64,000 nucleotides of DNA from Dietzia timorensis (GTDB lineage Bacteria; Actinomycetota; Actinomycetes; Mycobacteriales; Mycobacteriaceae), in contig NZ_CP015961.1 of assembly GCF_001659785.1 (NCBI RefSeq), positions 930,001 through 994,000 of the forward strand, given 5' to 3'. The position numbers and the translations under genes are program-made. The notes under the pieces were generated by a model, which had not been told where the DNA came from, did no database searches, and saw nothing but the letters and a program-made list of their open reading frames with translations. This document shows positions 8,537-26,299 of the stretch, piece by piece (the first letter of the stretch is position 1; each line of letters starts with the position of its first letter).

Positions 8537-8685
8537 ATCCCGATAGTAGGCAGTGCCGGGCGGTCCCGTGGCCGATATGGACGGCGCGCGCCGGGTACCG
8601 TTACCGATAGACATATCCGAAAGGCGCTGGTCATCCCAGGTGGTGGCTGCCGCCTGCATTCTTCGAAAGTGAACTGAGGTTGCGA

Positions 8686-9432: not shown

Positions 9433-9463
9433 TAGGGAGCACTACTGCGCTCGACTTTCGTAA

Positions 9464-9499
9464 AGGGGCGTCCGCCATAGCGGCGGGCGCCCCTCTTTT
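9464..9499 (+). terminator. Rho-independent terminator after echA6
   Basis: AGGGGCG pairs with CGCCCCT around an inner CCGCC/GGCGG stem, followed by CTTTTG. This is a good intrinsic terminator. Confidence 0.88.
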
Positions 9500-9570
9500 G
9501 TTTCCCGACCTACGTTGTTCTGCGGAAACGCTGATCGATAATGGCCTCCTGCGCGGCAATCCTGGGCACA

Positions 9571-11766: not shown

Positions 11767-11792
11767 CGCCCTATGCGAACGCTCTCACCAGG

Positions 11793-11820
11793 GGGCCGGT
11801 GGCGATATTGCCACCGGCCC
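11793..11820 (+). terminator. Hairpin terminator after mctC
   Basis: An 11-bp perfect stem (GGGCCGGTGGC with GCCACCGGCCC) has a GATATT loop. There is no long T-run. Confidence 0.75.
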
Positions 11821-12009
11821 TCCCGGCGTATTCACACATTACTTAGCCGTCGAAACCCGCGTCGGCATCGTCGAATTTGCACAAACTCTACTTTTATCGT
11901 CTTGATCACGATAAGGTCACTGGGTCGAAAGTGGCAGGTGGCCCCGGGAACGCCGTGTGCCTGTGGGTAATGGTGTGCTCGTTTACATGCGCGGTAGGTC
12001 GGGAGAGAG

Positions 12010-13641
12010 ATGGGTTCGAGGCATCGCGCAGCGACGGATAGTGTCCACAGCGCGAGGAAAGTTTTGGTGCGGGCATTGGTGCTGGTGGCGATCATCATCA
12101 TCGCTGTTGCCCTCTACCGGGTGGCAACGGGAAAGCCGCTTCTGCCGTGCGGCGGCAGCCATCCTGTGACCCTCGCGGCGGACCCCTCGATCTCCGAGGA
12201 GATCGAGCAACTCGCCGCAGAGTCGGGTGGCAATGGATGTACGTCTTACGAAGTCGAGAGCACATCCACCGGGGCGATGCTACGCAAGCTTGCCGACCGC
12301 AAAGAGCTTCCGGACCTGTGGATCCCGACCTCGACGGTGCAGTCCGATCGCGTATCGCGTGATTCGCAACTGCCGTTCGAGACGGTCCTCAACTCGGTCG
12401 CATCGACGCCTGTGGTGCTCGCGGTCAAGGACGGCGATCCTTCGATTCGAAATTGGACAGAAGCGCTCGGCACACCGGGAATGATCGTTGACGACGTTGC
12501 CGATTCGGGCGTCGCCGATGGTGCGATGCTCGCCGCCGCGGCGGAAAGGGAAGCGGGGCTCGTCAGCGCCGAACAGGTTCAGCAGTCGCTTGCCGTGCTC
12601 GCGCAGGGGCAGCGACCTTCGAACGAGGGGCTCGTGGATCAGCTCGCCAAGACAGGTGGGGTCGCCGTCGTCACCGAGCAGGAGCTTTCCGCCCGCGGCG
12701 AGCAGAACGAGGCCGACGGCATCCGCATCCAGGTGCCGGTCACCGGCGCGAACTACCTCAGCTTTCCGCTGGTCATCACCGCGCAGGATCCGGGGCGCCG
12801 CGACGACGTGCGTGAGGCGGCCCAGGAGCTCGCGGACGAGGCCACGGACGATGATTTCGCGAACACTCTCGCCGATGCCGGTTTTCGCACCGCAGACCGT
12901 GCACCGCTAGATGGGGATGTCGGCGTCGGCGAGACCGAGCGCCTCGTCGTCCGCGACTCCGGGGCGCTCGACGAAGCGGTCCGCGAGTGGCGGCTGATGT
13001 CGATGCCCACGAATTCTCTCGCGCTCGTCGATTCCTCGGGGTCGATGGCGCTGGACGTGCCGACGCTCGGTACCACGCGGATGGGCATGATGGTCCAAAC
13101 CCTCACCCGAGGCTTGGAATACTTCTCCGACTCGTCCTCGCTCGGCCTGTGGGCCTTCAACGCGGCCGACCCCACGCGCGCCGAGCCGTACGTCGAGGTC
13201 CAGCCGCTCGGCGGGCTCAGCGGGCCTTCGGCCTCGGGCGCGCAGGGCACCCACCGCGACGATCTGGTCTCCGGCCTCGCGGGCCTGCCCGAGTACGTCG
13301 GCGGGGCGACCGAGTTGTACTCCACTGTCCTCGCTGCCTACCGCTCGGTCCTCGATTCCTATGATCCCAATGCCATCAACACCATCATGGTGTTCAGCGA
13401 CGGCGCGAACGATGCCGCAGACACCATCGGCCGCGACGAATTCTTCACCCAGTTGCGCGAGATGCAGGATCCGCAGCGCCCGGTCAAGGTCGTCACGATC
13501 GGTGTGCTCGACGACGTCGACACCACCGTGCTCGCGGAGATCGCCGAAGCCACCGGCGGCTCCAGCCATATCTCCCGCACACCTGAAGAGATTCCGCAGG
13601 TCTTCGCCGCTGCGATCGCGGATCGCAGCACACCCGCCTAA
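12010..13641 (+). CDS. Membrane-anchored protein with substrate-binding-like and von Willebrand A domains
   Basis: A 543-residue protein. Residues 19-38 form one transmembrane anchor (VLVRALVLVAIIIIAVALY), so most of the chain should be outside the cell. Residues 50-300 look like an extracellular solute-binding fold (LPDLWIPTSTVQSDR, TPVVLAVKDGDP, GVAVVTEQEL). Residues about 335-540 are a von Willebrand A domain with the MIDAS motif DSSGSM, then a Thr and a second Asp (MVFSDGAND). A role in metal-dependent adhesion or envelope protein complexes is plausible, but no partner is visible. Its own promoter is expected in 11821-12009, where I found no clear hexamers. GGGAGA precedes the ATG. Confidence 0.8.
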   Translation: MGSRHRAATDSVHSARKVLVRALVLVAIIIIAVALYRVATGKPLLPCGGSHPVTLAADPSISEEIEQLAAESGGNGCTSYEVESTSTGAMLRKLADRKELPDLWIPTSTVQSDRVSRDSQLPFETVLNSVASTPVVLAVKDGDPSIRNWTEALGTPGMIVDDVADSGVADGAMLAAAAEREAGLVSAEQVQQSLAVLAQGQRPSNEGLVDQLAKTGGVAVVTEQELSARGEQNEADGIRIQVPVTGANYLSFPLVITAQDPGRRDDVREAAQELADEATDDDFANTLADAGFRTADRAPLDGDVGVGETERLVVRDSGALDEAVREWRLMSMPTNSLALVDSSGSMALDVPTLGTTRMGMMVQTLTRGLEYFSDSSSLGLWAFNAADPTRAEPYVEVQPLGGLSGPSASGAQGTHRDDLVSGLAGLPEYVGGATELYSTVLAAYRSVLDSYDPNAINTIMVFSDGANDAADTIGRDEFFTQLREMQDPQRPVKVVTIGVLDDVDTTVLAEIAEATGGSSHISRTPEEIPQVFAAAIADRSTPA

Positions 13642-15068: not shown

Positions 15069-15092
15069 GTGCCCCCGACAGGATTCGAACCT
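15069..15092. other. attL core, 24-bp repeat of tRNA-Arg 3' end
   Basis: This 24-bp sequence is identical to the T-arm/acceptor end of the tRNA-Arg gene at 26226-26249. The rest of the tRNA is missing here: sequence beyond 15092 diverges at once. Inside the element the core is followed by a CACTCG/CGAGTG inverted repeat (15093-15115). Confidence 0.9.
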
Positions 15093-15238
15093 CACTCGTG
15101 CTGTTCGTCCGAGTGGACTGCTACCAGCATACATACCGCGCTTGTCCTGGCAAGACGATAAGTAGTCGTGTCGCGCTGGTGTGCATACGTTAGCATAAGA
15201 TCGTATTCGGATCGGTTGGTAGATCGTATGGGGGAACC

Positions 15239-16405
15239 GTGGCAGGCAAACCAGGGCGCCGAGGATGGGGCTATATCCGCAAGCTCCCAAGCGGGCGCTA
15301 CCAAGCGTCCTACGTCGCCCCGAACGGCAGAACCTTCTACGGCCCCCGAGGTCCGTTCTCCGCGAAAACCGACGCCGAATTTTGGCTTGCGAGCGAACGA
15401 CGCTTAATCGAGCGCGACGAGTGGACTTCCCCGAAAGAGCGTGCCGCCGCTGAGGACGAGCGAGGCGGCGCGTCCCCGCTGACGTTCGGGCAATACGCCG
15501 CGGTGTGGATCGAGCAGCGCAAGCTGAAACCGACGACCCGCAACCTTTACCGCTCGCAGCTGGAGGCGCATATCCTCCCCGAGTTTGCCGACAGGCCGAT
15601 AACCGAAATCGCCGCGCCCGAGGTTCGCGCCTGGTACTCGAAACTTGAGCGCAAGCCGGCGCGCGCAGCCGGCAACGGAGTGCGCACAGGGGGGACCCGA
15701 ACCGCCCGCACGTACGCGCTACTCAAAACGATCTTCGGCACTGCGGTTGAGGACGGGCTCATCGAGTCGAACCCGGCCCGAATTAAGGGCGCTTCGCAGG
15801 TCGATCGCCGGCACAAGATCGAGGTTCTTACCCCCGCCCAGCTCGACGCGCTCGCCGCCGCCATGCCGCCCCAGTACCGGGCACTCGTGCTCGTCGCCGC
15901 GTGGGCCGGCCTGCGTCGTGGGGAAGTGGTTGCCCTTCGCCGCCGAGACATCGAACCGGACGGGGCCGAGATCCATGTTCACCGTGCCGCGTCGTGGATC
16001 CGCGGTAAGGCGACGATCGGCACGACAAAGAGCGCAGCGGGTGCCCGCGATGTGACGGTGCCGCCGCACCTTCGCAGCGTGCTCGTGGCGCACCTTGCCG
16101 AACATGTGCGCCGCGGGAGAGACGCGCTCGTGTTCCCCGGTAGTGGCGGCGGGCTGCTCGACGAATGGACCCTGCGCTATCACTTCAAGGCCGCTACGGA
16201 GACTATCGGCGTGCCTGAGTTTCGGTTCCATGATCTGCGGCACCAGGGCGCCGTTTACGCCGCCCGGGCCGGGGCGACGACGAAAGAGTTAATGAGCCGG
16301 TTGGGCCACTCGACGCCGCAAATGAGTATGAGGTACCAACACGCCGCACAGGGCCGAGACGCCGAGATCGCGGAGAGAATGTCACGAATGATCGAGGGGG
16401 AATAG
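15239..16405 (+). CDS. int: Tyrosine-recombinase integrase of the element
   Basis: A 388-residue phage-type tyrosine recombinase. The N-terminal part has an arm-binding-like beta domain (KPGRRGWGYIRKLPSGRYQASY), then a SAM-like core-binding domain (LTFGQYAAVWIEQRKLKPTT...). The C-terminal catalytic domain has Arg in GLRRGEV (about 225), Lys in TTKSAAG (about 263), His-x-x-Arg in FHDLRHQG (about 330), the LGH motif (about 357) and the nucleophilic Tyr in MRYQH (about 365). All catalytic residues are present, so it should be active. It lies 146 bp from attL. A GTG start follows GGGGGA. Two copies of AGATCGTAT at 15198 and 15221 are in its leader. Confidence 0.95.
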   Translation: MAGKPGRRGWGYIRKLPSGRYQASYVAPNGRTFYGPRGPFSAKTDAEFWLASERRLIERDEWTSPKERAAAEDERGGASPLTFGQYAAVWIEQRKLKPTTRNLYRSQLEAHILPEFADRPITEIAAPEVRAWYSKLERKPARAAGNGVRTGGTRTARTYALLKTIFGTAVEDGLIESNPARIKGASQVDRRHKIEVLTPAQLDALAAAMPPQYRALVLVAAWAGLRRGEVVALRRRDIEPDGAEIHVHRAASWIRGKATIGTTKSAAGARDVTVPPHLRSVLVAHLAEHVRRGRDALVFPGSGGGLLDEWTLRYHFKAATETIGVPEFRFHDLRHQGAVYAARAGATTKELMSRLGHSTPQMSMRYQHAAQGRDAEIAERMSRMIEGE

Positions 16406-16749
16406 TGGCTAAGAAATTCGGGCGGGTGCGGTGCGGTTCGTGCGACCGCGTGATCTACGACCCCGGGCAAGGGTTCCGCACACCGCGACCGCAGGAACAG
16501 GCCGAGCTCGACGCGATGGAACCGAGCCTCGAATCGGGGGCGGCGCTATACCGCGCGATCTCAGGGGGCGGGGCGCTCGACGCTCACACCCGTATCACTT
16601 TCGAGGACGACGCACAGACAGTGGCGCTGTTTCAATGCGCCGGCAAGGGCTGCGGTATTCGGTATCGAGTCGAGGGCTATCCGGCGCAGCTTGCCGACGC
16701 GATCGCCCGTACCGCTGATTTGGTGCTGTTTCACTCGCAGCGAACCTAG
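16405..16749 (+). CDS. Small zinc-ribbon-like protein of the element
   Basis: A 114-residue protein of unknown function. The GTG start overlaps the last base of the integrase stop, so it is coupled to int. Cysteines at 10 and 13 (RCGSCDR) and 78 and 83 (QCAGKGC) could bind one zinc ion. The middle is a helical region with many Ala and Asp residues. It could help the integrase or be an accessory DNA-binding protein; I recognise no family. Confidence 0.65.
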   Translation: MAKKFGRVRCGSCDRVIYDPGQGFRTPRPQEQAELDAMEPSLESGAALYRAISGGGALDAHTRITFEDDAQTVALFQCAGKGCGIRYRVEGYPAQLADAIARTADLVLFHSQRT

Positions 16750-16900
16750 ACACGTGAGGTAGTTCGTAGGAACTTAAACAAAACAATGCTAACGTAATCA
16801 ACGAATCGAATATCGCGGCCCAGCAATGGGCACCGACGACACCGGACGTACCTGTCGCGAGAAACGTCCCGTTCGCCTCATGGGGGCACGGGAGTTTTGC

Positions 16901-17107
16901 ATGTCCAAATCACGGGCGCCTCGCCGCCTCGATTCCATTCCTAACGCCGCCGAGAATTACGGCGTGCATCATTCCACCATCCGCAGGTGGATTTCACAGG
17001 GCCGCATCCACGGCTACCGCTTCGGCCCGAAAATGTTGCGCGTCGATCTCAATGAGCTTGACGCCCTGCTCCGCCCCCTCGCTACGGCAGGCGGTGCGGA
17101 TAAGTGA
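16901..17107 (+). CDS. Excisionase-like HTH protein
   Basis: A 68-residue basic protein with the excisionase/MerR-like helix-turn-helix seen in actinobacterial phages and plasmids: NAAENYGVHHSTIRRWISQGRIHGYRFGPKMLRVDLNELDALL, where the last part is the usual wing. It probably acts as recombination directionality factor for Int or as a transcription regulator. The ATG at MSKSRAPRR has GGGAG six bases upstream; a longer in-frame start upstream lacks a site. Upstream sequence 16760-16815 is AT-rich and should hold the promoter of the following gene chain. Confidence 0.7.
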   Translation: MSKSRAPRRLDSIPNAAENYGVHHSTIRRWISQGRIHGYRFGPKMLRVDLNELDALLRPLATAGGADK

Positions 17108-17409
17108 GCAAGAAAAATGAGTACGCCCCGGCGGGGAACCGGGGCGCGACTAATGAGATTCAATGCGTGGAAGATCTCGCGTCTGAGTCTACCGCCGAGC
17201 GTGGCGCCCCTGGTAGCGCCTCGACGCACCTACCCGCGATCCCCGCGTACATGCTGATTGTCGAAATCAAGGGCGACAAGTACCAGCGCCGGCCCTACAT
17301 GAGCCTGTCGAGCGCAGAGAAGGCGGTCGAGCGTGCACGCTCCCAAGGCCGCTACGCGACGGTTCGCCTGGTCGCCTGCACTCCGGTGCCGGGTGGTGAT
17401 CTCGCATGA
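17104..17409 (+). CDS. Hypothetical element protein
   Basis: A 101-residue protein whose GTG start overlaps the previous stop by four bases and whose stop overlaps the primase gene start by four. The N-terminal half is polar; the C-terminal half (AYMLIVEIKGDKYQRRPYMSLSSAEKAVERARSQGRYATVRLVAC) has the look of a small beta-alpha-beta fold. Its place directly before the primase/helicase gene suggests a replication-accessory role. No family was recognised. Confidence 0.6.
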   Translation: MSKKNEYAPAGNRGATNEIQCVEDLASESTAERGAPGSASTHLPAIPAYMLIVEIKGDKYQRRPYMSLSSAEKAVERARSQGRYATVRLVACTPVPGGDLA

Positions 17410-19343
17410 GTCTCGCGATCGACCGGCTCCGCGAGGCATGGCAACAGCAAGGCCTCGCGTGGAAGGACACCAGCTCGTCAACCGCGAGCGCGCAAGCCCC
17501 CGGCCATTCCGCTAAGGATCAGAGCGTCAGTGTTCGACAGATCGACGGGCAAGTCCTCATCCATTGCCATGCAGGCGAGGACACCGCCGAAGTGCTCGAC
17601 AAGCTAGGCCTCACCGTGGGCGACCTATTCGACAACCCCGCAGGGATCGAATACCGCTACCACGACGGGCGCGTCGTTAACCGCACGCCCAACAAGAAGT
17701 TTCGGCAGGCCGGCAACACGCGCGGAACTGCGCTCTACCGCGTCGAAACGCTGCCCACCGACCGAACCGCCACCGTGTTCGTGACAGAAGGCGAGAAAGA
17801 CGTTCACGCCCTCGAATCCGTCGATGCGATCGCGGTGTGCGGGGCAATGGGCGCGGGCAAGGCAAAGAAATTCGACTGGACACCGCTGGAAGGCCGACCC
17901 GTCACCGTCATCGCGGACAATGACGAACCCGGCTACAAGCACGCCGCCGAAGTTGCCGAACTACTCTCAGGCCTCGCAGCGTCAGTGACCATCGTTCGCG
18001 CCGCAGCCGGCAAAGACGCCGCCGACCATATCGCAGCCGGCCACCCGCTCACCGAGCTCGTGCCGCTCGACTACCGCCCCAAAGGCCGGCGCCTCAACAT
18101 CACCCGCGGAACCGACGTGCACCCCAAACGCATCCGTTGGATTATTCGTGAGTGGATTCCCGCCGCCTCGCTCACCCTGCTCGCAGGGCGCGAGGGTTTG
18201 GGCAAGTCCACGATCTCGGCAAGGATCTGCGCAGACATCACCCGCGGCACCTTGGAAGGCGAATATTTCGGACAGCCCCGCACGGTGCTTTACGTCCACA
18301 CCGAGGACAGCCGCGAACACACCGTGGCCCCGAGGCTGCAAGCCGCGGGCGCCGATATGTCACGTGTCTTATTCGTGGACGTGGCTACCGAGTACAGCGA
18401 CCACGCCACCCTCACCTTGCCCACCGATGTGCTCGCGCTAGAACAGCTCGTGGAGCGGGAGAACATCGGCATGGTGGTGCTCGACGCCGCAACGTCAGCG
18501 ATGAGCGCCGAGCTGTCAGGCCGAGACGATCGAGACGTGAGGCAATTCCTCGAACCGCTCGCGATGCTCGCCGCAAGACAATCCACCGCAGTGCTCGGGC
18601 TCGTGCACTTCGGCAAGCGCGACGGCGCCGACACCGGAAAGCTCATTCTCGGTTCGATCGCATGGTCACAGGTTGCTCGCTCGGTGCTTTCGGTGGCCCT
18701 CGATGAGGACACCGGCAAGCTCGTGGTGACGAACACGAAAACCAACCTCGCCACGCGGGTCCACTCGCAAGAGGCCGCGATCGTTAACGGCACCGTGGAA
18801 ACCGACGACGGCCCCGCCGAAGTCGGAGTGTGCCAGTGGGGAGAGGCCACGAACCGTGACGCACGAGACCTACTCGCAGGCGATCCCGAGGACGACGACC
18901 GCGGCGAAATTGAGAGCGTCGTTTTCGACTACCTCGAGACGCAAGGCGGATCGGCCCCAGCCGGCGACGTACTCAAGGCAACCCGCGCCGCAGGGCTCAA
19001 TGACAACGCCGTCAAAAAGGCCCGAAGGAAGCTCGGAGTCAAGACCGAGCGCCGAGGTTTCGGGCCGGGAGCTCAGTGGGTTTGGGCCATTGATTCCGGC
19101 ATAGATTCGATAGATTCCCATTCACGTGCAAGGGAATCTATGGCACCTATGGCACCTATGGATGCTGCGAAGGTGCCCGAAGAATCCATAGATACCCCTC
19201 CACAAGTACGGGAATCTTCGGCACCTATAGCGGCCCCAGGCGAGGCCGGCTCGCCGTGCGCCGAGTGCGGGCAAACGCTACTGCTCGACTCGCCAGACGG
19301 ACTTTGCACCCGTTGCGGTGGCCGTTGGGCGGTGGGGCAATGA
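17406..19343 (+). CDS. Toprim plus AAA primase/helicase (RepA-like)
   Basis: A 645-residue replication protein. Residues about 85-220 form a Toprim domain, with VFVTEGEKDVHALESV (acidic residue near 130) and VTVIADNDEPGYKHA (Asp pair near 168). Residues about 240-480 are a RecA/AAA-like ATPase with Walker A GREGLGKST (261-269), an HTEDS segment and a Walker B-like IGMVVLDAAT. Residues 500-570 look like a winged helix (LETQGGSAPAGDVLKATRAAGLNDNAVKKARRKL). The C terminus is low in complexity and ends in a zinc ribbon (CAECGQ and CTRCGG). The architecture is that of plasmid and satellite primase-helicases; it lacks an obvious N-terminal catalytic primase zinc finger. The gene is coupled to its neighbours by ATGA overlaps. 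Confidence 0.85.
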   Translation: MSLAIDRLREAWQQQGLAWKDTSSSTASAQAPGHSAKDQSVSVRQIDGQVLIHCHAGEDTAEVLDKLGLTVGDLFDNPAGIEYRYHDGRVVNRTPNKKFRQAGNTRGTALYRVETLPTDRTATVFVTEGEKDVHALESVDAIAVCGAMGAGKAKKFDWTPLEGRPVTVIADNDEPGYKHAAEVAELLSGLAASVTIVRAAAGKDAADHIAAGHPLTELVPLDYRPKGRRLNITRGTDVHPKRIRWIIREWIPAASLTLLAGREGLGKSTISARICADITRGTLEGEYFGQPRTVLYVHTEDSREHTVAPRLQAAGADMSRVLFVDVATEYSDHATLTLPTDVLALEQLVERENIGMVVLDAATSAMSAELSGRDDRDVRQFLEPLAMLAARQSTAVLGLVHFGKRDGADTGKLILGSIAWSQVARSVLSVALDEDTGKLVVTNTKTNLATRVHSQEAAIVNGTVETDDGPAEVGVCQWGEATNRDARDLLAGDPEDDDRGEIESVVFDYLETQGGSAPAGDVLKATRAAGLNDNAVKKARRKLGVKTERRGFGPGAQWVWAIDSGIDSIDSHSRARESMAPMAPMDAAKVPEESIDTPPQVRESSAPIAAPGEAGSPCAECGQTLLLDSPDGLCTRCGGRWAVGQ

Positions 19344-19549
19344 GAGATCAGCTCATTACGTTCCGGCAGTGGATCCGCGAACAGAAACCCGCCCCGAAAT
19401 CATTACCGTGCCGAGGCTGCGACCGTCCGAAGTTCGACGGCGTGAAGGGGGACGGCCTGTGCGGACCGTGCCCACGGTTCGCCGCCGCGCCGCCTGTGGC
19501 GAGCAGCCCCGCGGAACAGTCTGCGATCGAGTGGGAGCCTCCGGCATGA
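19340..19549 (+). CDS. Small zinc-ribbon protein
   Basis: A 69-residue protein whose ATG overlaps the primase stop (ATGA). It has CRGCDRPKFDG and CGPCPRF, four cysteines in two CxxC pairs, as in a zinc ribbon. Its function is unknown. It sits between the primase/helicase and the WhiB-like gene in one coupled transcript. Confidence 0.55.
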   Translation: MRDQLITFRQWIREQKPAPKSLPCRGCDRPKFDGVKGDGLCGPCPRFAAAPPVASSPAEQSAIEWEPPA

Positions 19550-19800
19550 GCGACCTGGAAAAGACTCTCGCGAGTCTCGCAGACCCGCGACTCGACGGCG
19601 CCGCCTGTAAAGGCAAAGCGCCGTTGTTCGACGATCGAGGGCCACGGGAATCTTGGTACAACTACCGCGCCCGAATCGCGGAAGCTCGCAGCTATTGCCA
19701 AGTCTGCAAGATCCGAACGGTATGCGCCCAGATCATCGAGGAAACCCCGCGAACCCGCCGCGCAGGCATGTGGGCCGGCCACGTCCAAGGAGAGGCATGA
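19546..19800 (+). CDS. WhiB-like [4Fe-4S] regulator
   Basis: An 84-residue protein with the WhiB cysteine pattern: Cys21, then Cys51-x2-Cys54-x5-Cys60 (SYCQVCKIRTVC), followed by the conserved turn GMWAGH (normally GVWGG). The cysteines would hold an iron-sulphur cluster, and WhiB proteins bind the primary sigma factor. Members on mobile elements and phages can control host or element transcription. The start overlaps the previous stop (ATGA). The basic C-terminal tail that contacts DNA in host WhiB proteins is short here, so it may act only through the sigma factor. Confidence 0.82.
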   Translation: MSDLEKTLASLADPRLDGAACKGKAPLFDDRGPRESWYNYRARIAEARSYCQVCKIRTVCAQIIEETPRTRRAGMWAGHVQGEA

Positions 19801-19928
19801 GATTTCTTTTGATCCCAGAAGCGCCCATGAAAATCGCCACCCGAACCGGCGCAGATTGGCCGACACACCGAGGAAGAGCACGCCGACATAAGCGACGCGT
19901 CACAGCACGAAAGCGGGGGAGAAAATGA
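19797..19928 (+). CDS. Small basic protein of the element
   Basis: A 43-residue, strongly basic protein (theoretical tail HRGRARRHKRRVTARKRGRK) whose ATG overlaps the stop of the WhiB-like gene. The C terminus could bind nucleic acid. A second in-frame ATG ten codons later is possible. I recognise no family, and a gene this short needs expression evidence. Confidence 0.4.
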   Translation: MRFLLIPEAPMKIATRTGADWPTHRGRARRHKRRVTARKRGRK

Positions 19929-20122
19929 AAATCGCGCGTCTGCGACAGGGCAACCGCTTTGCGATTCTCAAGGTTCTGCCGGCTCCGGCAGGTGACGGCG
20001 TGACGCTCGTGTTCGGGACGTTCACGCTCACACTCAACCAAGACAAATCATTCCGCCTTGCGAACGCAATCGCGGATATCTGCGAGACGCAAGAACCCCG
20101 AGAATCGGGCAAAGGGAAATGA
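19925..20122 (+). CDS. Hypothetical element protein
   Basis: A 65-residue protein linked to both neighbours by four-base ATGA overlaps. The sequence (QGNRFAILKVLPAPAGDGVTLVFGTFTLTLNQDKSFRLANAIADICE) suggests a small beta sheet followed by a helix. No family was recognised. Confidence 0.5.
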   Translation: MKIARLRQGNRFAILKVLPAPAGDGVTLVFGTFTLTLNQDKSFRLANAIADICETQEPRESGKGK

Positions 20123-20463
20123 GCTCGGAACAGGTTGCCGGGGTGCTGGTGTCGGGGCAGGATCTCGCCGCGCTCGCGGAAGCCGTCAGAATCGCCAGTG
20201 CCGTACGCACCCGCTACGGCCTCAACGTGCCGCCCGAATGGGCCAAACTGCGAGCACTCGCGACCGGGAACGGTCACGAGGACGCCCCGCCGATAGAGGC
20301 CGACGAGGATCTTTTATCGACAGCCGAGATCGCTCGACTGTTGCACTGCTCCCCTCGCCAGGCTCGAAGAATGGTTCCCCTGCTAGACGGTCGCCTGGTG
20401 GGAGGGCGGTGGCTAGCACCGCGCGCGGCGGTGCTCGAACACCTGAAAGGAATGAGCGCGTGA
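20119..20463 (+). CDS. Helix-turn-helix protein (AlpA/excisionase-like domain)
   Basis: A 114-residue protein. The C-terminal half (LLSTAEIARLLHCSPRQARRMVPLLDGRLVGGRWLAPRAAVLEHL, residues about 66-110) is a helix-turn-helix of the HTH_17 type used by AlpA and excisionase proteins. The N-terminal half is helical. It could control the element's genes or be a second directionality factor. Start and stop overlap the neighbouring genes. Confidence 0.65.
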   Translation: MSSEQVAGVLVSGQDLAALAEAVRIASAVRTRYGLNVPPEWAKLRALATGNGHEDAPPIEADEDLLSTAEIARLLHCSPRQARRMVPLLDGRLVGGRWLAPRAAVLEHLKGMSA

Positions 20464-20618
20464 AGCTCAACAACCTTGCGAAGAAGATGCTCCACCCCGA
20501 ACAGATCGGAGCCATGCGAACGATGCTCGGCGCCGAGAAGTTCGAAGAGAAGTACATGGAGCCCGACACCGAACCCGAGAACCCAGAGACCCCCGAAGAA
20601 GAAGGAGAATCCGCATGA
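20460..20618 (+). CDS. Small acidic-tailed protein
   Basis: A 52-residue protein starting with GTG that overlaps the previous stop by four bases. A helical N-terminal part (KLNNLAKKMLHPEQIGAMRTMLGAEKF) is followed by a strongly acidic tail. No family was recognised. Confidence 0.5.
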   Translation: MKLNNLAKKMLHPEQIGAMRTMLGAEKFEEKYMEPDTEPENPETPEEEGESA

Positions 20619-20857
20619 GCACCAACACCGACGAGAGCAACGCGAGCACCACGACTCGCCACGATCCGAAGACCGACGAGCTGACACAGGAGCAGGTCGA
20701 GCAGTACCTCATCGACTGTGACCAGGGCACGTTCGAAAACCTCATGGCCGAGGTTCACGCCGAGCGTGCCGCCGCGTCGAAGGACGGCCTCGCCCGCGGC
20801 GCCCGCCTGTACGAGCGGAACAAGGCCAACGGTGGGTTCAACATCGAGGGGCGATGA
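20615..20857 (+). CDS. Hypothetical element protein
   Basis: An 80-residue protein overlapping both neighbours by four bases. Polar N terminus, then a helical region (LTQEQVEQYLIDCDQGTFENLMAEVHAERAAASKDGLARGARLYERNK). No family was recognised. Confidence 0.5.
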   Translation: MSTNTDESNASTTTRHDPKTDELTQEQVEQYLIDCDQGTFENLMAEVHAERAAASKDGLARGARLYERNKANGGFNIEGR

Positions 20858-20955
20858 GCATCGCCGCCGCCGTCTACCTTCACGCCCTCATCGGCGCCGA
20901 GGTCGACGAAACCCTCGCCAGGATCTACAGGAAGCGAGCAGCCAATGACCGCTAA
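20854..20955 (+). CDS. Very small ORF in the coupled chain
   Basis: A 33-codon reading frame begins with ATG overlapping the previous stop (ATGA) and ends inside the next gene's start region. The peptide MSIAAAVYLHALIGAEVDE plus a basic tail would form one amphipathic helix. It may be real because all its neighbours use the same overlap pattern, but it could be chance. Confidence 0.35.
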   Translation: MSIAAAVYLHALIGAEVDETLARIYRKRAANDR

Positions 20956-21775
20956 TCGAGTTGCCGTAGGGGCAAAGTCGGCACGAGTGCTCGACCTCGC
21001 TGAAAGGCTCGACCTTCCCGCCGACATTCGCGACGACCTCGCAGCCGCCGAACAGATCTGCCTCAACGTCCACGGCGTAGCCAAGGGCGTGCAGTCGGTG
21101 GACGTAGCGAAGGCCCGCATCATCGCCGCCGCAAGAGAAGGCAAGACACCAGACCCCGGCGACGTTGCCGCGGTCGCCGCATGGTCCGACCTCAATGCGA
21201 TCATCAGCGCCGCCACCAACGGGGCGCAAAGTGAGCTTGCGACCGTCATCGCCGGCCACGCCGACGAGATCACCCACGCGATCGCAGAACAGTGGCATGC
21301 CCCCGCCGTCGCCGCACTCACCCGGGTATCCGCCTGGTGGACCGGGGAGACCTCCGGGCAGCTGTTCACCGCGGGTAGGGACGCCGAGGCCGAACAGCTC
21401 CGCGCCGCCGAAACCTCGCACGCCCAACTAGGCGAAGCGTTGCAAGCACGCGATGCCGTGTACTCGGGGCAAGGCGCGGTAGGTATCCCGGAGTACGGGG
21501 CGCTCGGCTATGCCCGCTACCACGCCGAGCACAACACGCCGCCGCGAGATCGGTGGGGCAAGGTCGCCGGCCCTTGGGTTACGACACCGCCGCGCATCGC
21601 ACTCGGCAAGATGGGCGACACCCTGCGCCTGCTTGCCGAGGGAGTGGACCTGTGGTTGCCAACTCTCGATGAGGCAGCGGACGAACAGCGCAGGATCATC
21701 GACGAGTTCAACCGCGACGGTGAACGCGAACGCGAAGCGAAGAGAGGTCAGCGCCAGTACGTCAGGATCACCTGA
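20945..21775 (+). CDS. Hypothetical protein, last gene of the chain
   Basis: A 276-residue, mostly helical protein with many Ala, Asp and Glu residues. It has a Trp-rich middle (EQWHAPAVAALTRVSAWWTG) and a charged C terminus. No catalytic motif or known family was seen. A strong intrinsic terminator lies 18 bases after its stop and ends the chain that starts at the excisionase gene. It is the largest unknown protein of the element, so it is a good target for structure prediction. Confidence 0.6.
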   Translation: MTANRVAVGAKSARVLDLAERLDLPADIRDDLAAAEQICLNVHGVAKGVQSVDVAKARIIAAAREGKTPDPGDVAAVAAWSDLNAIISAATNGAQSELATVIAGHADEITHAIAEQWHAPAVAALTRVSAWWTGETSGQLFTAGRDAEAEQLRAAETSHAQLGEALQARDAVYSGQGAVGIPEYGALGYARYHAEHNTPPRDRWGKVAGPWVTTPPRIALGKMGDTLRLLAEGVDLWLPTLDEAADEQRRIIDEFNRDGEREREAKRGQRQYVRIT

Positions 21776-21792
21776 CAAACCGCAGACCAGAG

Positions 21793-21821
21793 AGGGACGC
21801 AAGCCAAGTGCTTGCGTCCCT
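21793..21821 (+). terminator. Rho-independent terminator of the element gene chain
   Basis: A perfect 12-bp stem (AGGGACGCAAGC with GCTTGCGTCCCT) has a 5-base loop and is followed by TTCGTCATTT. Confidence 0.9.
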
Positions 21822-21832
21822 TTCGTCATTTC

Positions 21833-22439
21833 GTAACGATAAAACGTTTCAACCAGCACAAACAGCCAAACGCAATAACCGCAACAGTAAGCACAGACAC
21901 AGAACGCACACAAAAACACGCCCCAAAACCCGCCTGACCAGCCCAAACACACCCAAGGCAGACGTGCCGAGAAAATGCCGGGGAGAAATGGGTCATATGC
22001 CGGGGAGTCGCCGCAACCGTCGACCCCGGAGCGTTCCCGCACCCCACCAGCCGAAAAGAGCGGCCTAGATCGAACGCTGACGGCCTCGCAGACAGTCCGA
22101 GGGGTGGCATTTGGGATGCGACCCCCTGAAAAGTCCAGACCCGTACGCACATCGAGCATGTATGCCGGGAGGGGAGAGCGAAGCCCGAAGGGGAAACCCC
22201 TGGCACCCCTGCTGTGACTAGCGGTGTGCCGCTTTCGGTTTCGAGCGCGGGCCGGTTGCTTGTGTCGATGGGTGGGGACGAGTCCCGGTCACCGCCGCCG
22301 TTGCGTTGCCCACGCGGCATAGAGGATCCCCCCGAAGGTGAAAAGGTGGGTGGTGGTTTCGTGGGGTTTTAGGCCTGGTGTTGGGCTGCTGTTTGGGGTT
22401 GTTTGCTGGTTTGTGCTGGTTGAGTGCTTTTGTTGTTAC
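21833..22439. repeat. Origin-like non-coding region with a 39-bp inverted repeat
   Basis: The arms at 21833-21871 and 22401-22439 are inverted copies, 30 of 39 bases identical, with a perfect 15-bp core (21849-21863 against 22409-22423). The left arm side is A/C-rich and the right arm side G/T-rich on the plus strand. The whole 21822-22454 stretch has no convincing gene. The right arm ends 15 bases before the primase-polymerase start. Together with the direct repeats below and the flanking replication genes, it could be a replication origin or a double promoter. Confidence 0.55.
21975..22171 (+). repeat. Iterated ATGCCGGGGAG motif
   Basis: The 11-mer ATGCCGGGGAG occurs at 21975-21985 and again at 21997-22007, exactly 22 bases apart (two helix turns). 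A one-base-shorter copy, ATGCCGGGAG, is at 22162-22171. Such phased repeats are typical of initiator-binding iterons. Confidence 0.45.
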
Positions 22440-22454
22440 AAGTTTCGCGATAGA

Positions 22455-23030
22455 ATGTTGAGTGTGAAACACGTTTGTCAGCGTTGCGGTTCGTTGTTCG
22501 TCCAGTCTGGTCGCGGGATCTCCCCGAGGTTCTGTTCGGGTGCGTGTCGGCAGGCTGCGCATCGTGCGCGGCAACCGCAGATACCTCATGGTTTGCGTTC
22601 GCGTGATCGGTGGACGCGAGCGGATGGTAAACGTCCTGTGCAGGTTGGGGGCGGCCCAGCGTCGTCGACGAACGAGAGGACGTGGACGAGCTGGGGCAAG
22701 GTTCGTTCGGGTGCGGGCGATGGGTTCGGGTTCATGCTCGGTGATGGTGTTGGCTGCATCGACCTCGACCATTGCCTAGACGAGAACGGTGCTGTCGTGT
22801 CTACGGTTGCCGCTGCGGTGCTCGATGCGAACCCTGGCGCGTGGGTTGAGGTGTCTCGCTCGGGGCGCGGGCTGCACGTGTGGGGTTTGTTGCCGGAGGG
22901 TTCGGGCCGGCGCGTGGAAGGGTGCGAGGTTTACAGCCGTGCCCGGTTCATGGTGGTGACGGGCAGGGTGTTTCGTGCGGGCAGGTTGGTGCCGCTGACG
23001 GTGCCTGCGGGTGTGCTCGACGCGGCCTAG
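22455..23030 (+). CDS. Zinc-finger primase-polymerase-like protein
   Basis: A 191-residue protein. Residues 8-31 hold a zinc finger (CQRCGSLF and FCSGACRQAAHRAR). The rest resembles the small archaeo-eukaryotic primase-polymerase fold of plasmid and phage enzymes: KRPVQVGGGPASSTNERTW (residues 59-77), the metal motif GCIDLDHC (Asp103, Asp105), SRSGRGLHVWG with a His (about 141) and CEVYSRARFMVVTG with a Glu (about 158). It may prime or copy the element's DNA. I recognise it by motif only. The frame is open 39 codons upstream, but ATG at 22455 lies just before the zinc finger. Base use is more T-rich than in neighbouring genes. Confidence 0.7.
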   Translation: MLSVKHVCQRCGSLFVQSGRGISPRFCSGACRQAAHRARQPQIPHGLRSRDRWTRADGKRPVQVGGGPASSTNERTWTSWGKVRSGAGDGFGFMLGDGVGCIDLDHCLDENGAVVSTVAAAVLDANPGAWVEVSRSGRGLHVWGLLPEGSGRRVEGCEVYSRARFMVVTGRVFRAGRLVPLTVPAGVLDAA

Positions 23031-23065
23031 GTTGCGGTGCTCAGCACCGTGACTGCGTGCGAGGT

Positions 23066-23257
23066 TTACCGCTGGGTTTGCCAAAGCGCGTGTAGCGCCT
23101 CGCGTGGTTGGGTAGGGGTGTAGGCGTGTTGGCCGGCGTGCTCGAACCGTTCCCCGGTCTCGACGTCGCGCAGCTCGAACCGATCGCCGGACCCCTCGAT
23201 GTAGTGGCCGAGGCCGAGGGCCGCGGCGCGCAGATGATCCGGGAGGGTCGTACTCAT
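23066..23257 (-). CDS. Small hypothetical protein
   Basis: A 63-residue protein whose ATG overlaps by four bases the stop of the zinc-finger frame before it on the minus strand. The sequence (ALGLGHYIEGSGDRFELRDVETGERFEHAGQHAYT) is a short beta-rich piece. It converges with the primase-polymerase gene. Function unknown. Confidence 0.5.
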   Translation of the reverse strand: MSTTLPDHLRAAALGLGHYIEGSGDRFELRDVETGERFEHAGQHAYTPTQPREALHALWQTQR

Positions 23258-23460
23258 TTCTGTGCGCGTGCCCGGTGGGCTGCGACTCGGCAGCGTCCCG
23301 AGCAGTAGCGGGAATCGGTGCGGGGCGGGGTGTAGTTGTCGCCGCAGTGGTCGCAAGCTTGGATGCGCGGCGCTGGTGTTCGGCAGGTCCAGCATTTGTA
23401 TGGGGACCGCCCGAGGTAGCTCGACCTGTCGGGGGGGGCTGATGCACGGTTAGGTGACAC
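23254..23460 (-). pseudogene. 3' part of a zinc-finger gene, cut by the insertion sequence
   Basis: A 68-residue frame containing KCWTCRTPAP, CDHCGDNYTP and the motif RYCSGRCRVAAHRARAQK, which closely matches the finger at the start of the primase-polymerase (FCSGACRQAAHRAR). Its only start codon, a GTG, lies inside the terminal repeat of the insertion sequence. It reads in the same direction as the truncated frame on the other side of that insertion (24684-24890), so it is probably the C-terminal half of one disrupted protein. Confidence 0.55.
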
Positions 23461-23466
23461 GGTTAG

Positions 23467-24327
23467 TCACGCGGCCTGAGGGGCCTCGTGGTTGATGATT
23501 GTCTCGAATTCGATGGGGGTCAATCTGCCGAGGCGGTCTTGTCGTCTGCGGCGGTGGTAGGTGCGTTCGATCCAGTGCACGATGGCGGCCCGGAGCTCGT
23601 CTCTGGTGGCCCAGGATCGGCGGTCGAGGACGTTGTTCTGTAGCAGCGAGAAGAAGCTCTCCATGGCTGCGTTGTCCCCAGCAGCGCCGACCCTTCCCAT
23701 CGACCCGAGCATGCCGTGCCGGGTGATGGCCTTCTGCATCTTCTTCGAGCGAAATTGAGATCCTCGATCGCTGTGTAGGACGCAGCCGGTCACGTCGCCC
23801 CGCCTGGCGACGGCGCTGTTCAGTGCGGCCACGGCCAGGCGGGACTTCATCCTGGAGTCGATCGAATACCCGACGATGCGGCCCGAGTAGACGTCCTTGA
23901 TCGCGCACAGGTACAGCTTTCCCGCCGCCGTCCAGTGCTCGGTGATGTCGGTGAGCCACAGCTCGTTCGGGCCCACGGCGGTGAAGTCCCGCTCGACGAG
24001 ATCGTCGTGCACGGGTGGGCCGGCCTTGCGATGCTTGCCGCGGCCTTTCTTGCTGATGGCACTGGTCCAGCCACCGGTTGAGCAGATTCGCCAGGCGGTC
24101 CGCCGGCACATCTTCTCGCCTGCGGTCTCGGCTTCGTCGGCGAGGTAGCGGTAGCCGAACTCGGGGTCCTCCCGGTGGGCGTCGTACAGGGCGTTGGCCC
24201 GGTACGCCTCGGCGAGTTCGGCATCGGTGACAGGGTTCTTGAGCCATCGGTAGTAGGGCTGACGAGCTATTCCAAGTACCCGGCACGCCACCGTGACGGG
24301 GATGCCGTCAGCGGCGAGCTCGTTCAC
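23467..24327 (-). CDS. IS3-family transposase, OrfB
   Basis: A 286-residue integrase-core transposase. The N-terminal part has an HTH_21-like segment (VTVACRVLGIARQPYYRWLK). The DDE residues are Asp in LWLTDITEHW, Asp in LHSDRGSQFRS and Glu in NAAMESFFSLLQNN. It begins with a GTG that overlaps the orfA stop by four bases. In the IS3 family, OrfA and OrfB are usually joined by a -1 frameshift; a GGGAAAAGG run near the end of orfA could be the slippery site. All catalytic residues are intact. Confidence 0.92.
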   Translation of the reverse strand: MNELAADGIPVTVACRVLGIARQPYYRWLKNPVTDAELAEAYRANALYDAHREDPEFGYRYLADEAETAGEKMCRRTAWRICSTGGWTSAISKKGRGKHRKAGPPVHDDLVERDFTAVGPNELWLTDITEHWTAAGKLYLCAIKDVYSGRIVGYSIDSRMKSRLAVAALNSAVARRGDVTGCVLHSDRGSQFRSKKMQKAITRHGMLGSMGRVGAAGDNAAMESFFSLLQNNVLDRRSWATRDELRAAIVHWIERTYHRRRRQDRLGRLTPIEFETIINHEAPQAA

Positions 24328-24632
24328 GAGCGGGTACCACCTTTTCCCGGCAGATTCGCCTGGGACAGGTAGGCAGCAGCGCGGCGCAGAACCTCGTTCT
24401 CCTGCTCCAGCAGGCGCACACGCCGCTTGGCTTCACGCAGCTCACGCGACTCGGCCGACGTGGTGCCGGGCTTGATTCCGGCTTCGACGTCGGCCTTGCG
24501 GATCCACTTCTGCAACGTCATGGGGTGGATACCGAAGTCGGCGGCGATCTGCTCGAGAGTCACACCGTCTTCACGGGCCTGGGCGACGCGAACCACGTCG
24601 TCGCGGAACTCCTGGGGATAGGGCTTGGGCAC
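24324..24632 (-). CDS. IS3-family transposase, OrfA
   Basis: A 102-residue protein with the HTH_Tnp_1 domain (YPQEFRDDVVRVAQAREDGVTLEQIAADFGIHPMTLQKWIRKAD), followed by a leucine-zipper helix (ELREAKRRVRLLEQENEVLRRAAAYL). It binds the terminal repeats and pairs with OrfB. A GTG start is chosen because AAGGA lies a suitable distance upstream; the longer frame upstream runs into the terminal repeat. Confidence 0.88.
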   Translation of the reverse strand: MPKPYPQEFRDDVVRVAQAREDGVTLEQIAADFGIHPMTLQKWIRKADVEAGIKPGTTSAESRELREAKRRVRLLEQENEVLRRAAAYLSQANLPGKGGTRS

Positions 24633-24683
24633 AACAACATCCTTCCAGGCCGCCCCGGCAGGGCAAGCCAGATCAGATGTCAC

Positions 24684-24890
24684 CTACTCGTGCACCAGCC
24701 CCGGGTACTCGCATGACGGTTTGAGTTCGTGGCAGGCGCAGCACCGTTTGAGTTTCATGCGCCGCATGCACGGTTCCCATTGTTCTAGGGGTGCGCTTTG
24801 GTCTTTCGGGGTGAATGCCGTTTGGCCGGCAGGGCGGGCGCGGTGCGCGATGTTGCGCATGCGCTGGTGTTCGTCTGTAACGGCTTTCAT
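24684..24890 (-). pseudogene. 5' part of a zinc-finger gene, truncated by the insertion sequence
   Basis: A 68-residue frame from its ATG ends at a TAG made by the insertion's terminal repeat. The last residues before the end, MKLKRCCACHELKP...CEYP, have the CxxC...KP pattern that in phage zinc-ribbon/HNH proteins is followed by Y-x-C-x2-C, and exactly such a KCWTC segment starts the frame on the other side of the insertion. Joined, the two would make a protein of roughly 130 residues. Confidence 0.5.
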
Positions 24891-24898
24891 GGCTTAAT

Positions 24899-24910
24899 TA
24901 AACCGGTTTA
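24899..24910. promoter_or_regulatory. 12-bp palindrome in a divergent promoter region
   Basis: TAAACCGGTTTA is a perfect palindrome in the AT-rich gap between the truncated zinc-finger gene (minus) and the winged-helix gene (plus). It could be an operator for the winged-helix protein. Confidence 0.4.
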
Positions 24911-24959
24911 CCCGTTACAAGGCAAGGTAGGGATCTTCCCCGAACGGTACACTTAGAGC

Positions 24960-25394
24960 ATGTCCCGAGGCATCGGCAAGACCCAACGCAGAATCCTCGA
25001 TTTTGTGAACGCTGGCGACGAACCATCGACAATCAGCGAGATAAGCGAATCGCTCGAAATCCCCCCGAGGCAGATACGAACCGCCGTGCAATCGCTGCAT
25101 GAACGCGGCCTCGTGTTCGCCGGCAAAGGGTGGCGCGGTGACTTTCGAGAACCAGCGATTTCGTGGCGGTACACACCGGAGAAGATCGACGACCTCGACC
25201 GGCAAACCGTTGTTGCGTTCAAGGGTCTGCCGTGGCCGGGGAAGCCGGGAAAAGTGGCGCCTGGGTGGGGCACGTTCGTTGCGGTTGAACATCGGATGCC
25301 GACCGGCGTGCAACTGTATGTCCACCCGACGCGGGAGGTTGAGCGTATCCGGGAGCTACACCGAAAGATCGCGGCGATTTGGGCGGGAGCTTAG
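24960..25394 (+). CDS. Winged-helix DNA-binding protein
   Basis: A 144-residue protein. The N-terminal 60 residues are a winged helix (GKTQRRILDFVNAGDEPSTISEISESLEIPPRQIRTAVQSLHERGLV), as in MarR-type or replication-initiator proteins. The C-terminal half (FVAVEHRMPTGVQLYVHPTREVERIRELHRKIA) is unassigned. It is read rightward, away from the insertion sequence, with a palindrome just upstream. It is a plausible repressor or copy-control protein of the element. No good ribosome site precedes the ATG. Confidence 0.6.
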   Translation: MSRGIGKTQRRILDFVNAGDEPSTISEISESLEIPPRQIRTAVQSLHERGLVFAGKGWRGDFREPAISWRYTPEKIDDLDRQTVVAFKGLPWPGKPGKVAPGWGTFVAVEHRMPTGVQLYVHPTREVERIRELHRKIAAIWAGA

Positions 25395-25729
25395 AGAAGC
25401 CCCTTCGGGGCTGACGGTGGGCACAAGTGCCCCGGAGTGTTTTGCCCTGCCTCCCAAAGCTCCCGATCAACCATTGCCACATAGACCCTCTGTGCCACGC
25501 TTCGCGGCCCCGGCTCGAAGGTGAGCCGCGGCTATCGAAAATGGCAGGTCCGCGAAATTGCAAGGTTCACGTCCTGGCGGTGATCCCCGTTCGATCGCCG
25601 TCTATAGCGTTACCGGGTGCCTCAAGGGTTGTTGTCGCGGTCGGGCCGAAAACTCCCGCGTGGATGCGCCAGCTGAGCGCCCAACGCGCACGCCCTAGAG
25701 TGATTGCCCAGGGCGGGCACGCAAGGGGC
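25395..25729. other. Gap without a recognised gene
   Basis: No convincing gene was seen. A hairpin AGCCCC/GGGGCT at 25398-25412 directly follows the winged-helix stop and may be a weak terminator. The remaining sequence has ordinary composition and only chance reading frames. Confidence 0.4.
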
Positions 25730-26080
25730 TCAGAGTGCGTTTGAGGGGCCGGTTTCCGAATCGCGGGCGGTTTTGATGGCCTCGATGATCGCGAGAGCGA
25801 ACTCTTCGGCCTCAACCGGGCTCAACGCGCGTTCAGGGTCGTAGACGCGAACCGTCGTTGGGTAGGCGGTCGTGCCGTCCAGGGTGGTCACGTCTTCCGC
25901 GAGAAGGTCGACGCCCCACGATTTGCCGGGGCGGGAGAAGGATCGCACCCAGGTGTGGAATTGGGCGCCGGTTTTCCGGTCGACGCCAGTATCTTCGGCC
26001 TCGGTTTCGAGGCACCATGCAGGTCGCTCGCCGGGGCTGCGGTGATTGTCGATCTGGGAAGGTAAGCTGTTGCTTGCCAT
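25730..26080 (-). CDS. Hypothetical protein near attR (DUF6907-like)
   Basis: A 116-residue protein with a good AAGGGAG ribosome site. It has RPAWCLETEAEDTG near the start and YDPERALSPVEAEEFALAIIEAIKTA at the end. This arrangement resembles a family of small actinobacterial phage and plasmid proteins (DUF6907) with a PxWC motif and a terminal LSPxEAxxLAxA helix. That match is from memory and weak. Function unknown. Confidence 0.5.
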   Translation of the reverse strand: MASNSLPSQIDNHRSPGERPAWCLETEAEDTGVDRKTGAQFHTWVRSFSRPGKSWGVDLLAEDVTTLDGTTAYPTTVRVYDPERALSPVEAEEFALAIIEAIKTARDSETGPSNAL

Positions 26081-26105
26081 GAGGGTTGTGCTCCCTTGTG
26101 GTCAC

Positions 26106-26139
26106 GACCCCGGAAGTTCGCGCTTCGCGGGGTCTTTTT
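26106..26139 (+). terminator. Terminator facing the tRNA at the element's right edge
   Basis: GACCCCG (26106-26112) pairs with CGGGGTC (26128-26134) around an inner GAAG/CTTC stem, followed by TTTTTA. It would stop rightward transcription from the element before the tRNA-Arg gene. Confidence 0.7.
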
Positions 26140-26223
26140 AATTGACCAGCAAGAGTGAGACCGTACCGCTAATCGTATCCTTGACCCTTGCGGGCTTAGA
26201 TAAGCGTTTTACCTGCGGTTATA

Positions 26224-26299
26224 TGGTGCCCCCGACAGGATTCGAACCTGTGACACCTTCTTTAGGAGAGAAGTGCTCTATCCCCTGAGCTACGAGGGC
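26224..26299 (-). tRNA. tRNA-Arg (anticodon CCU), with encoded CCA
   Basis: Read on the minus strand, the 76 bases fold as a complete tRNA. The acceptor GCCCTCG pairs with CGGGGGC, followed by discriminator A and an encoded CCA. The anticodon stem CTTCT/AGAAG holds loop CTCCTAA with anticodon CCT, reading AGG. The T-arm has GGTTCGAATCC. The 3' half is the att core, so the element's own DNA completes the gene. Confidence 0.95.
26226..26249. other. attR core inside tRNA-Arg
   Basis: The second copy of the 24-bp att sequence, identical to 15069-15092, covers the T-arm and acceptor 3' end of the tRNA. Confidence 0.9.

Follow-up and report, generated by a model that had tools for sequence, protein, structure and literature searches.

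Among described phage satellites, cos-type phage-inducible chromosomal islands (PICIs) such as SaPIbov5 and EcCICFT073 are reported to carry an integrase, a regulator, a replication module and a cohesive-end (cos) site in cis, and no structural genes (PMC6092414, PMC10690885), and the phage-inducible chromosomal minimalist islands (PICMIs) of the Vibrionaceae combine an integrase, an AlpA-type helix-turn-helix (HTH) protein (HTH_17) and their own replicase, with no capsid gene (PMC10803314). Capsid-forming PICIs (cf-PICIs) encode capsid, portal and terminase (PMC10690885), some with tape measure (tmp) genes (PMC12987554). For the Actinobacteria, a survey raised the possibility that elements of <15 kb are satellites and noted that validation lags behind (PMC10023795); candidate PICIs, phiRv1 and phiRv2 included, have been reported for Mycobacterium, defined by an integrase plus a capsid gene and often located in tRNA genes (PMC10654092); and the Streptomyces satellites Mulch and Flayer are described as encoding capsid and packaging genes, with direct terminal repeats and without key replication genes (PMC10690885). 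Here, an integrated element of 11,181 bp from attL to attR (~9.9 kb without an insertion sequence (IS)) is described from Dietzia timorensis, a genome of a single contig (NZ_CP015961.1; 3,607,892 bp), within a stretch of 64,000 nucleotides (positions 930,001 to 994,000; the window, to which coordinates refer). Judged from its sequence, the element is probably a phage satellite of Actinobacteria whose packaging would rely on a helper-type module, made up of a cos-like site and gene 1, a gene that adjoins cos in actinophages.

Comparison with described satellites

With an integrase, att sites and no full set of virion genes, the element has the general layout of a phage satellite. With cos-type PICIs it shares the integrase, the replication module, the lack of detected structural genes and, in its cos-like site, a candidate cos in cis. 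PICIs are described as having integrase, replication module and master regulator in conserved order, no structural or lytic genes, and att sites that prophages never use (PMC6092414); for the regulator, the WhiB-like g07, the HTH protein g10 and the winged-HTH protein g18 are guesses. The element differs in having no identified master regulator, in being slightly smaller than the ~12–15 kb given for PICIs (PMC6092414), and in its helper-type gene 1 beside a cos-like site, which the accessible parts of the PICI reports do not mention. The traits listed for the PICMIs are likewise shared, but PICMIs are described at fis with a DUF3987/DUF5906 primase (PMC10803314), whereas the element occupies tRNA-Arg(CCT) and has a replicase with Toprim and AAA_25 domains. 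Like the cf-PICIs, it is a small integrated satellite, although none of the capsid, portal and terminase genes reported for them was detected; two Bifidobacterium relatives (below) have a capsid gene and no terminase or portal match. Mulch and Flayer are also actinobacterial satellites and, as described, nearly the reverse of the element in gene content.

The preliminary description, made by a model from the letters alone, had placed the element in a class little described in the Mycobacteriales, which is half right, as satellites are not new in Mycobacterium, for which candidate PICIs are in print (PMC10654092). Those candidates come from related bacteria and share the integrase, but no capsid was detected in the element, and because it is capsid-less a search for integrase plus capsid would miss it. 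The resemblance in mechanism, by analogy, is to cos-type PICIs and PICMIs (PMC6092414, PMC10803314). No assignment to the PICIs, cf-PICIs, PICMIs or actinomycete integrative and conjugative elements (AICEs) is made, since the element departs from each in one or more of the tested features (for PICIs, size only). A defining feature of AICEs is an FtsK/TraB-type translocase, to which none of 20 called proteins had a Pfam match.

Content of the element

Several features proposed in the preliminary description were confirmed (Table 1). The 24-bp direct repeats are exact, insertion in tRNA-Arg(CCU) agrees with ARAGORN, whose single tRNA call for the window is a minus-strand tRNA-Arg (anticodon cct) with the right repeat as its 3' end, the integrase is intact, and a WhiB-like regulator scores above its cut-off. 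The reported absence of capsid, terminase, relaxase and FtsK/TraB genes also held, with no Pfam or PHROGs match to these or to a portal in the 20 called proteins (g17 entered as two fragments; transposases excluded), the exceptions being one head-protein match (g16) and weak HTH matches, with E values of 0.017 or more, to families of the terminase small subunit. Profiles for the large terminase subunit (TerL), portal and major capsid protein found nothing at E 0.01 among the element's open reading frames (ORFs) of ≥50 aa, and no lytic genes were matched by Pfam and PHROGs, the only sources used for these. Because the element has a DNA-loading start region without the loading motor or the shell, it would very likely move inside particles made by other phages.

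PADLOC gave no convincing defence match on the element. The replicase g05 was considered as a defence gene and rejected, since its match to a reverse transcriptase-associated DnaG-like model (9.4e-10) comes via its Toprim domain.

A gene family beside cos

The preliminary description counted two primase-type proteins; both g05 and g15 are primase-related, though the second probably lies outside ordinary replication and belongs to a phage packaging-start family, which the preliminary description did not recognise. The match of g15 to phrog_8643 is near full length (profile positions 3–176 of 179), that to Pfam Prim-Pol (5.7e-4) is below the Pfam cut-off, and a Foldseek search with the AlphaFold model (mean predicted local distance difference test score (pLDDT) 93.3) hits the NrS-1 primase-polymerase in its N-terminal domain (5.3e-11). 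Four N-terminal finger cysteines, D103, D105 and H141 are invariant in alignments of 15 and 19 sequences, and the last three residues are presumably the catalytic set, by comparison with the archaeo-eukaryotic primase (AEP) family.

The phrog_8643 family is gene 1 of cos-type actinophages, where it adjoins cos and precedes the terminase. In Poushou, Juicebox, Krakatau and B22, gene 1 starts 0.2–0.3 kb from the left genome end and is followed by one gene and then the large terminase; Bauer and Samy have the same layout with two or three genes in between. The Samy record annotates cos as the last 11 bases, a site predicted from sequence coverage at the termini (PMC11302927). Even where gene 1 is inverted relative to TerL (12/44 loci: L068, L073, L075, L076, L081, L083, L090, L093, L095, L098, L100 and L101), its place in 11 of these 12 is still the interval from an HNH gene to TerL. 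Plasmid records matching g15 numbered 94; among the best 20 of these, the top and only actinobacterial record, phiCmus45274, has terminase and portal genes.

Gene 1 with and without a terminase

A scan of genome contigs against the gene-1 alignment detected 54 loci, of which the 44 from Actinobacteria were counted and the 10 from Clostridia were not; a family-level search gave 10 strong matches besides the window, three of which coincide with contig-scan loci, and class and order searches added five, for a census of 56 loci that excludes the window. Left uncounted were 16 weaker family-level matches (E 3.9e-5 or worse), G113, and 24 matches in 17 genomes outside the class (16 of them in frames of ≥500 aa), and the genome-search counts are lower bounds, with at most eight candidates scored per genome. 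TerL, detected with a profile iterated on the same ORFs that it searched, was near gene 1 in 47 of the 56 loci. Viral contigs held at least 552 gene-1 relatives, with TerL or portal in 79 of the 80 kept. Viral contig collections are enriched for contigs with phage hallmark genes, so this one says little on satellites.

Nine loci lacked TerL (L028, L064, L089, L091, L096, L097, L102, L105 and L222). Gene 1 lies at a contig end in L091 and L102, and in L222 it is followed by a tape measure gene (3670–7293; 9e-130) with no terminase match. L064, L089, L096, L097 and L105 are five architecturally matching, terminase-less elements in other Actinobacteria, each with an integrase, a tRNA and matching repeats. 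L064, from the family of the window's host (10.1 kb; tRNA-Leu; 56-bp repeat), has a similar plan, which runs from an integrase and an HTH_17 gene through a primase-helicase (DUF3987, 6e-99; a PICMI trait) and small genes to a 249-aa protein, which a gap separates from gene 1. L097 of Galactobacter (10.7 kb; tRNA-Ser; 24-bp repeat) has a DUF3631 protein and a 276-aa protein before gene 1. The Bifidobacterium elements L089 (B. leontopitheci LMG 31471; 8.7 kb; tRNA-Phe; repeats 53+32) and L096 (9.0 kb; tRNA-Gly; repeats 29+22) encode a major head protein (8545–9432, phrog_10 1.6e-23, and 8619–9530, phrog_10 3.9e-21, respectively), and L089 also has a weak scaffold match (0.0037). In L105 of the Microbacteriaceae (13.1 kb; tRNA-Arg; 47-bp repeat), gene 1 is followed by a tape measure gene (10546–13392; 1.6e-81). 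As the replicases differ, what the satellites have in common is an integrase, insertion at a tRNA, and gene 1 together with the region upstream of it.

Two terminase-less gene-1 loci, L105 and L222, thus have a tape measure gene of their own, which suggests satellites that set their own tail length. This is not new in kind, because PLE11 and some cf-PICIs carry such a gene (PMC12987554).

Origin of satellite gene 1

In a tree of 57 gene-1 proteins (eight satellite rows, with L091 and L102 counted as satellites), the satellite label requires seven changes, at least six of them forced by well-supported branches, and a label shuffle test found no clustering of satellites (147/500 as low). Galactobacter caseinivorans JZ R-183 contains both satellite L097 and L109, a prophage with a terminase; these two and L086 form a group at 100/100, and the two gene-1 copies of the strain are 85% identical over 474 nt. 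Bifidobacterium rows, phages and satellites alike, make up one group (100/99), L105 and L103 form a pair (98/97), and L064 has no well-supported close neighbour. On these sequence comparisons, satellite gene 1 is not one clade, and the well-supported cases nest with phages of the same or related hosts. Repeated capture of cos and a primase-like gene by satellites appears to be new; among the matches listed in the open-licence PubMed Central literature, no title or abstract describes satellites carrying cos and gene 1.

The cos-like site

Read by eye, the phage ends consist of a G-run/C-run stretch, a short CAT-like cut and then family-specific letters. A comparable arrangement is present in the non-coding block ahead of g15, where GGCAT/AGAGGATCCCCCCGA at 22316–22335 (slashes mark cuts) resembles the sites of L078, L092, L099, L108 and Bauer, 134 nt before g15, and where by analogy the cut is expected after 22320. 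The phage-only gapped model recovered eight of nine phage sites when each was left out (L106 was missed), and the score of the window's site was reached in 3 of 3,000 random 679-nt sequences (first-order Markov sequences and not shuffles, as for the window and inverted-repeat tests). In L064, the best match of this model is the cos candidate (4.2 bits, E 6.5), while the candidates of L089, L096, L097 and L105 were missed by it and were read by eye (for L097, CCAGGCAT/AG, ~0.2 kb before gene 1). Because the scores of the phage-only model, a fairer test than the exact pattern (below), are mixed, the window's site rests on position and moderate similarity.

Eight of 128 loci, seven prophages and L089, have the 14-mer ACCGCCGGATAGCA 185–251 nt before gene 1; it is common to the Bifidobacterium prophages L077, L080 and L085 and satellite L089. 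Bifidobacterium phages include a ACCGCCGGAT/AGCA type. The cos block of L089 is 83% identical to that of L080 over 84 nt at an equal distance from gene 1, in sequence terms the strongest sign of a satellite carrying the cos of local phages.

The non-coding block of the window, also passed over in the preliminary description, contains a 39-nt inverted repeat with a score of 16.5, against a maximum of 13.0 in 200 random sequences, which may mark an origin or bracket the cos region. GTTAC/GTAAC occurs within 110 nt upstream of gene 1 in 31/46 phage-type loci and 4/7 satellites, including the window (22435), compared with 1/45 in each of two sets of control stretches, and is not frequent across the element (six sites); it may be a shared promoter element.

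Proposed mechanism

A helper phage entering the cell would trigger excision, after which the g05 replicase would copy the circle, probably from the 21.8–22.4-kb block bracketed by inverted repeats. The helper terminase would recognise the cos-like site near 22320 and load satellite DNA into helper-made particles. The product of g15, a minimal prim-pol with a zinc finger, would act at the cos/terminase start, the presumed place of gene 1 action in the helper, making the satellite cos acceptable to that helper. As a guess based on where it lies, g14 may adapt capsid or terminase. Since two models (TerL profile; PF20441) find no terminase in the host genome, any helper would need to arrive from elsewhere.

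Weighing the explanations

A number of points weigh against the satellite reading. Excision, induction, helper and particles are predictions from the sequence. The window's gene 1 sits on a long branch with no well-supported neighbour. Across the whole window, the cos-like site is the second best match of the phage-only model (E 0.78), and at least 10 of 100 random windows outscore it (all 6.5 or more); the exact pattern matched at the site was found in 0/100 shuffles, with the spacing widened to 3–9 to fit the window (phage sites, 4–9). An ungapped cos motif iterated from 32 co-directional loci (excluding L028, L091, L102, L072, L023 and the duplicates L066, L071 and L074) drifted and missed the window's site, and was rejected. 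The fold of the cos region is not unusually stable (z +1.37; 190/200 shuffles at least as stable). The TerL profile matched 6 of 23 genomes of the genus, the host genome not being among the six, and six terminase pieces from five of these showed no gene 1 and no matching cos pattern; nor did they have convincing similarity to the window's non-coding block. No empty site was found, the right-flank gene being present in five other genomes of the genus in stretches of 2.8–3.6 kb without the left-flank gene or tRNA. The WhiB-like and HTH genes of L064 were named by eye, with no Pfam match for either, and, because the IS interrupts one gene, this copy of the satellite may be decaying.

It is improbable that the element is what remains of a larger prophage whose late genes were deleted while cos and gene 1 were kept by chance. 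Both cos and gene 1 belong to phages, the element contains an IS, and a large proportion of prophage elements in Actinobacteria are described as cryptic (PMC10023795), but the att repeats are clean at both ends, the integrase and replicase are open, no late-gene remnant was found in the element, and random decay would hardly yield the same plan repeatedly, as in five compact elements of 8.7–13.1 kb that, in different hosts, have an integrase, replication-type or unknown genes of their own and gene 1. The preliminary description had left a choice between a phage satellite and a reduced integrative plasmid. The satellite half is strengthened by the identity of g15, its cos-like neighbour and the five matching elements, and an integrative plasmid or AICE-like element, conjugative and using two primases for replication, is very improbable. 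The replicase, the primase-type genes and tRNA integration would suit it, as would a related Rep in two 7-kb elements without gene 1 (L025 and L026); against it stand the missing FtsK/TraB and relaxase matches, the terminase near most members of the second primase family, and the terminase and portal of phiCmus45274. Nor is it evident what use a phage gene from beside cos would be to a plasmid.

A satellite in which g15 serves replication, or as a decoy against the helper, and not packaging is unlikely but carries more weight. A role in DNA synthesis is plausible given the prim-pol fold and invariant D103, D105 and H141, yet a Toprim-AAA replicase is already present, and the gene-1 family tracks cos and terminase, even in the inverted copies.

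Other features

The IS, overlooked in the preliminary description, splits the small minus-strand gene g17. Copies on two Gordonia plasmids share 91% identity with it, and one on a Dietzia plasmid 90%; it is a later passenger and lies outside the satellite plan. For g05, full-length matches at ~30% occur in Microbacterium phages. The position of g14 is that of the capsid gene in the two Bifidobacterium satellites; in L064 and L097 this position is taken by the 249-aa and 276-aa proteins, which are 20–29% identical to g14 in a forced alignment. The AlphaFold prediction for g14, from three sequences, has a pLDDT of 44.

Two tRNA elements of 7.1–7.2 kb from the window's genus (L025:5934–13144 and L026:6847–13957) have a Rep ~61–62% identical to g05 and share a 222–244-aa protein, of which the 222-aa version in L026 has no similarity to g14; gene 1 was not found in these or in L030 and L031, the other small tRNA elements with a related Rep. 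A 9.7-kb tRNA-Val element (L029:6315–15973) with an integrase, Rep, HNH and its own TerL is another satellite type.

Table 1. Features of the element, in window coordinates
Feature	Coordinates	Strand	Evidence
attL core, left copy of 24-bp direct repeat	15069–15092		exact repeat, extended both ways to mismatch
g01, tyrosine integrase, 388 aa	15239–16405	+	Phage_integrase (Pfam) 3.9e-15; phrog_1 8.8e-67
g02, 114 aa	16405–16749	+	no significant family
g03, excisionase-like HTH, 68 aa	16901–17107	+	HTH_17 1.3e-7; TIGR01764 excise 33.8 bits (cut-off 28.8)
g04, 101 aa	17104–17409	+	no family
g05, replicase, Toprim + AAA_25 helicase-like, 645 aa	17406–19343	+	AAA_25 2.1e-34; Toprim_3 3.5e-8
g06, small protein, 69 aa	19340–19549	+	no significant family
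g07, WhiB-like regulator, 84 aa	19546–19800	+	Whib 6.4e-6, 27.1 bits (cut-off 23.6)
g08, small protein	19797–19928	+	only phrog_15402 (unknown function), 0.0061
g09, small protein	19925–20122	+	no family
g10, HTH protein, 114 aa	20119–20463	+	HTH_17 4e-5, under its cut-off
g11, small protein	20460–20618	+	no significant family
g12, small protein	20615–20857	+	no significant family
g13, small protein	20854–20955	+	no significant family
g14, 276 aa, last gene ahead of non-coding block	20945–21775	+	no significant family
Non-coding block, 679 nt, candidate origin and cos region	21776–22454	+	no called gene; AT-skew reversal
Inverted repeat, left arm, 39 nt, 77%	21833–21871	+	score 16.5
G-run/C-run element ahead of cos-like site	22271–22293	+	by eye against phage cos ends
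cos-like site, GGCAT/AG...ATCCCCCCGA	22310–22335	+	phage-only gapped model, 6.4 bits
Inverted repeat, right arm, with GTTAC motif	22401–22439	+	repeat search and motif count
g15, gene-1 homologue, zinc finger + prim-pol fold, 191 aa	22455–23030	+	phrog_8643 1.8e-63
g16, 62 aa	23066–23254	-	no significant family; one head-protein match at 0.026
g17, downstream fragment (treble-clef-like), cut by IS	23254–23460	-	ORF; weak zinc-finger matches
IS3-family insertion, 1,268 bp	23435–24702	-	terminal inverted repeats 23435–23459/24678–24702; transpos_IS3 4.9e-76
tnpB, within IS	23467–24327	-	transposase of IS3 insertion
tnpA, within IS	24324–24683	-	transposase of IS3 insertion
g17, upstream fragment	24684–24890	-	ORF; no significant family
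g18, winged-HTH protein, possible regulator	24960–25394	+	MarR_2 1.3e-5, just under cut-off
g19, 116 aa	25730–26080	-	no significant family
attR core, right repeat copy, 3' end of tRNA-Arg(CCT) (26224–26299)	26226–26249		exact repeat and ARAGORN

Implications

A wider reading that joins these results is tentative and, taken whole, more doubtful than probable. Actinophages would hold an undescribed packaging-start factor, a minimal zinc-finger prim-pol that is encoded next to cos and licenses it for the terminase; satellites would have taken cos and gene 1 from local phages independently several times, cos alone being insufficient; and the accompanying variable gene (g14-like, capsid or tape measure) would determine which part of the virion is remodelled, making capsid-less, capsid-bearing and tail-altering satellites variants of one plan. 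The results point to a prim-pol at cos, whose possible role in packaging is directly testable, and satellite L097 and prophage L109, held in one strain, are a ready-made test pair. Gene 1 without a nearby terminase offers a search key for satellites missed by capsid-based searches, and it places such satellites in several actinobacterial families, including the Bifidobacteriaceae.

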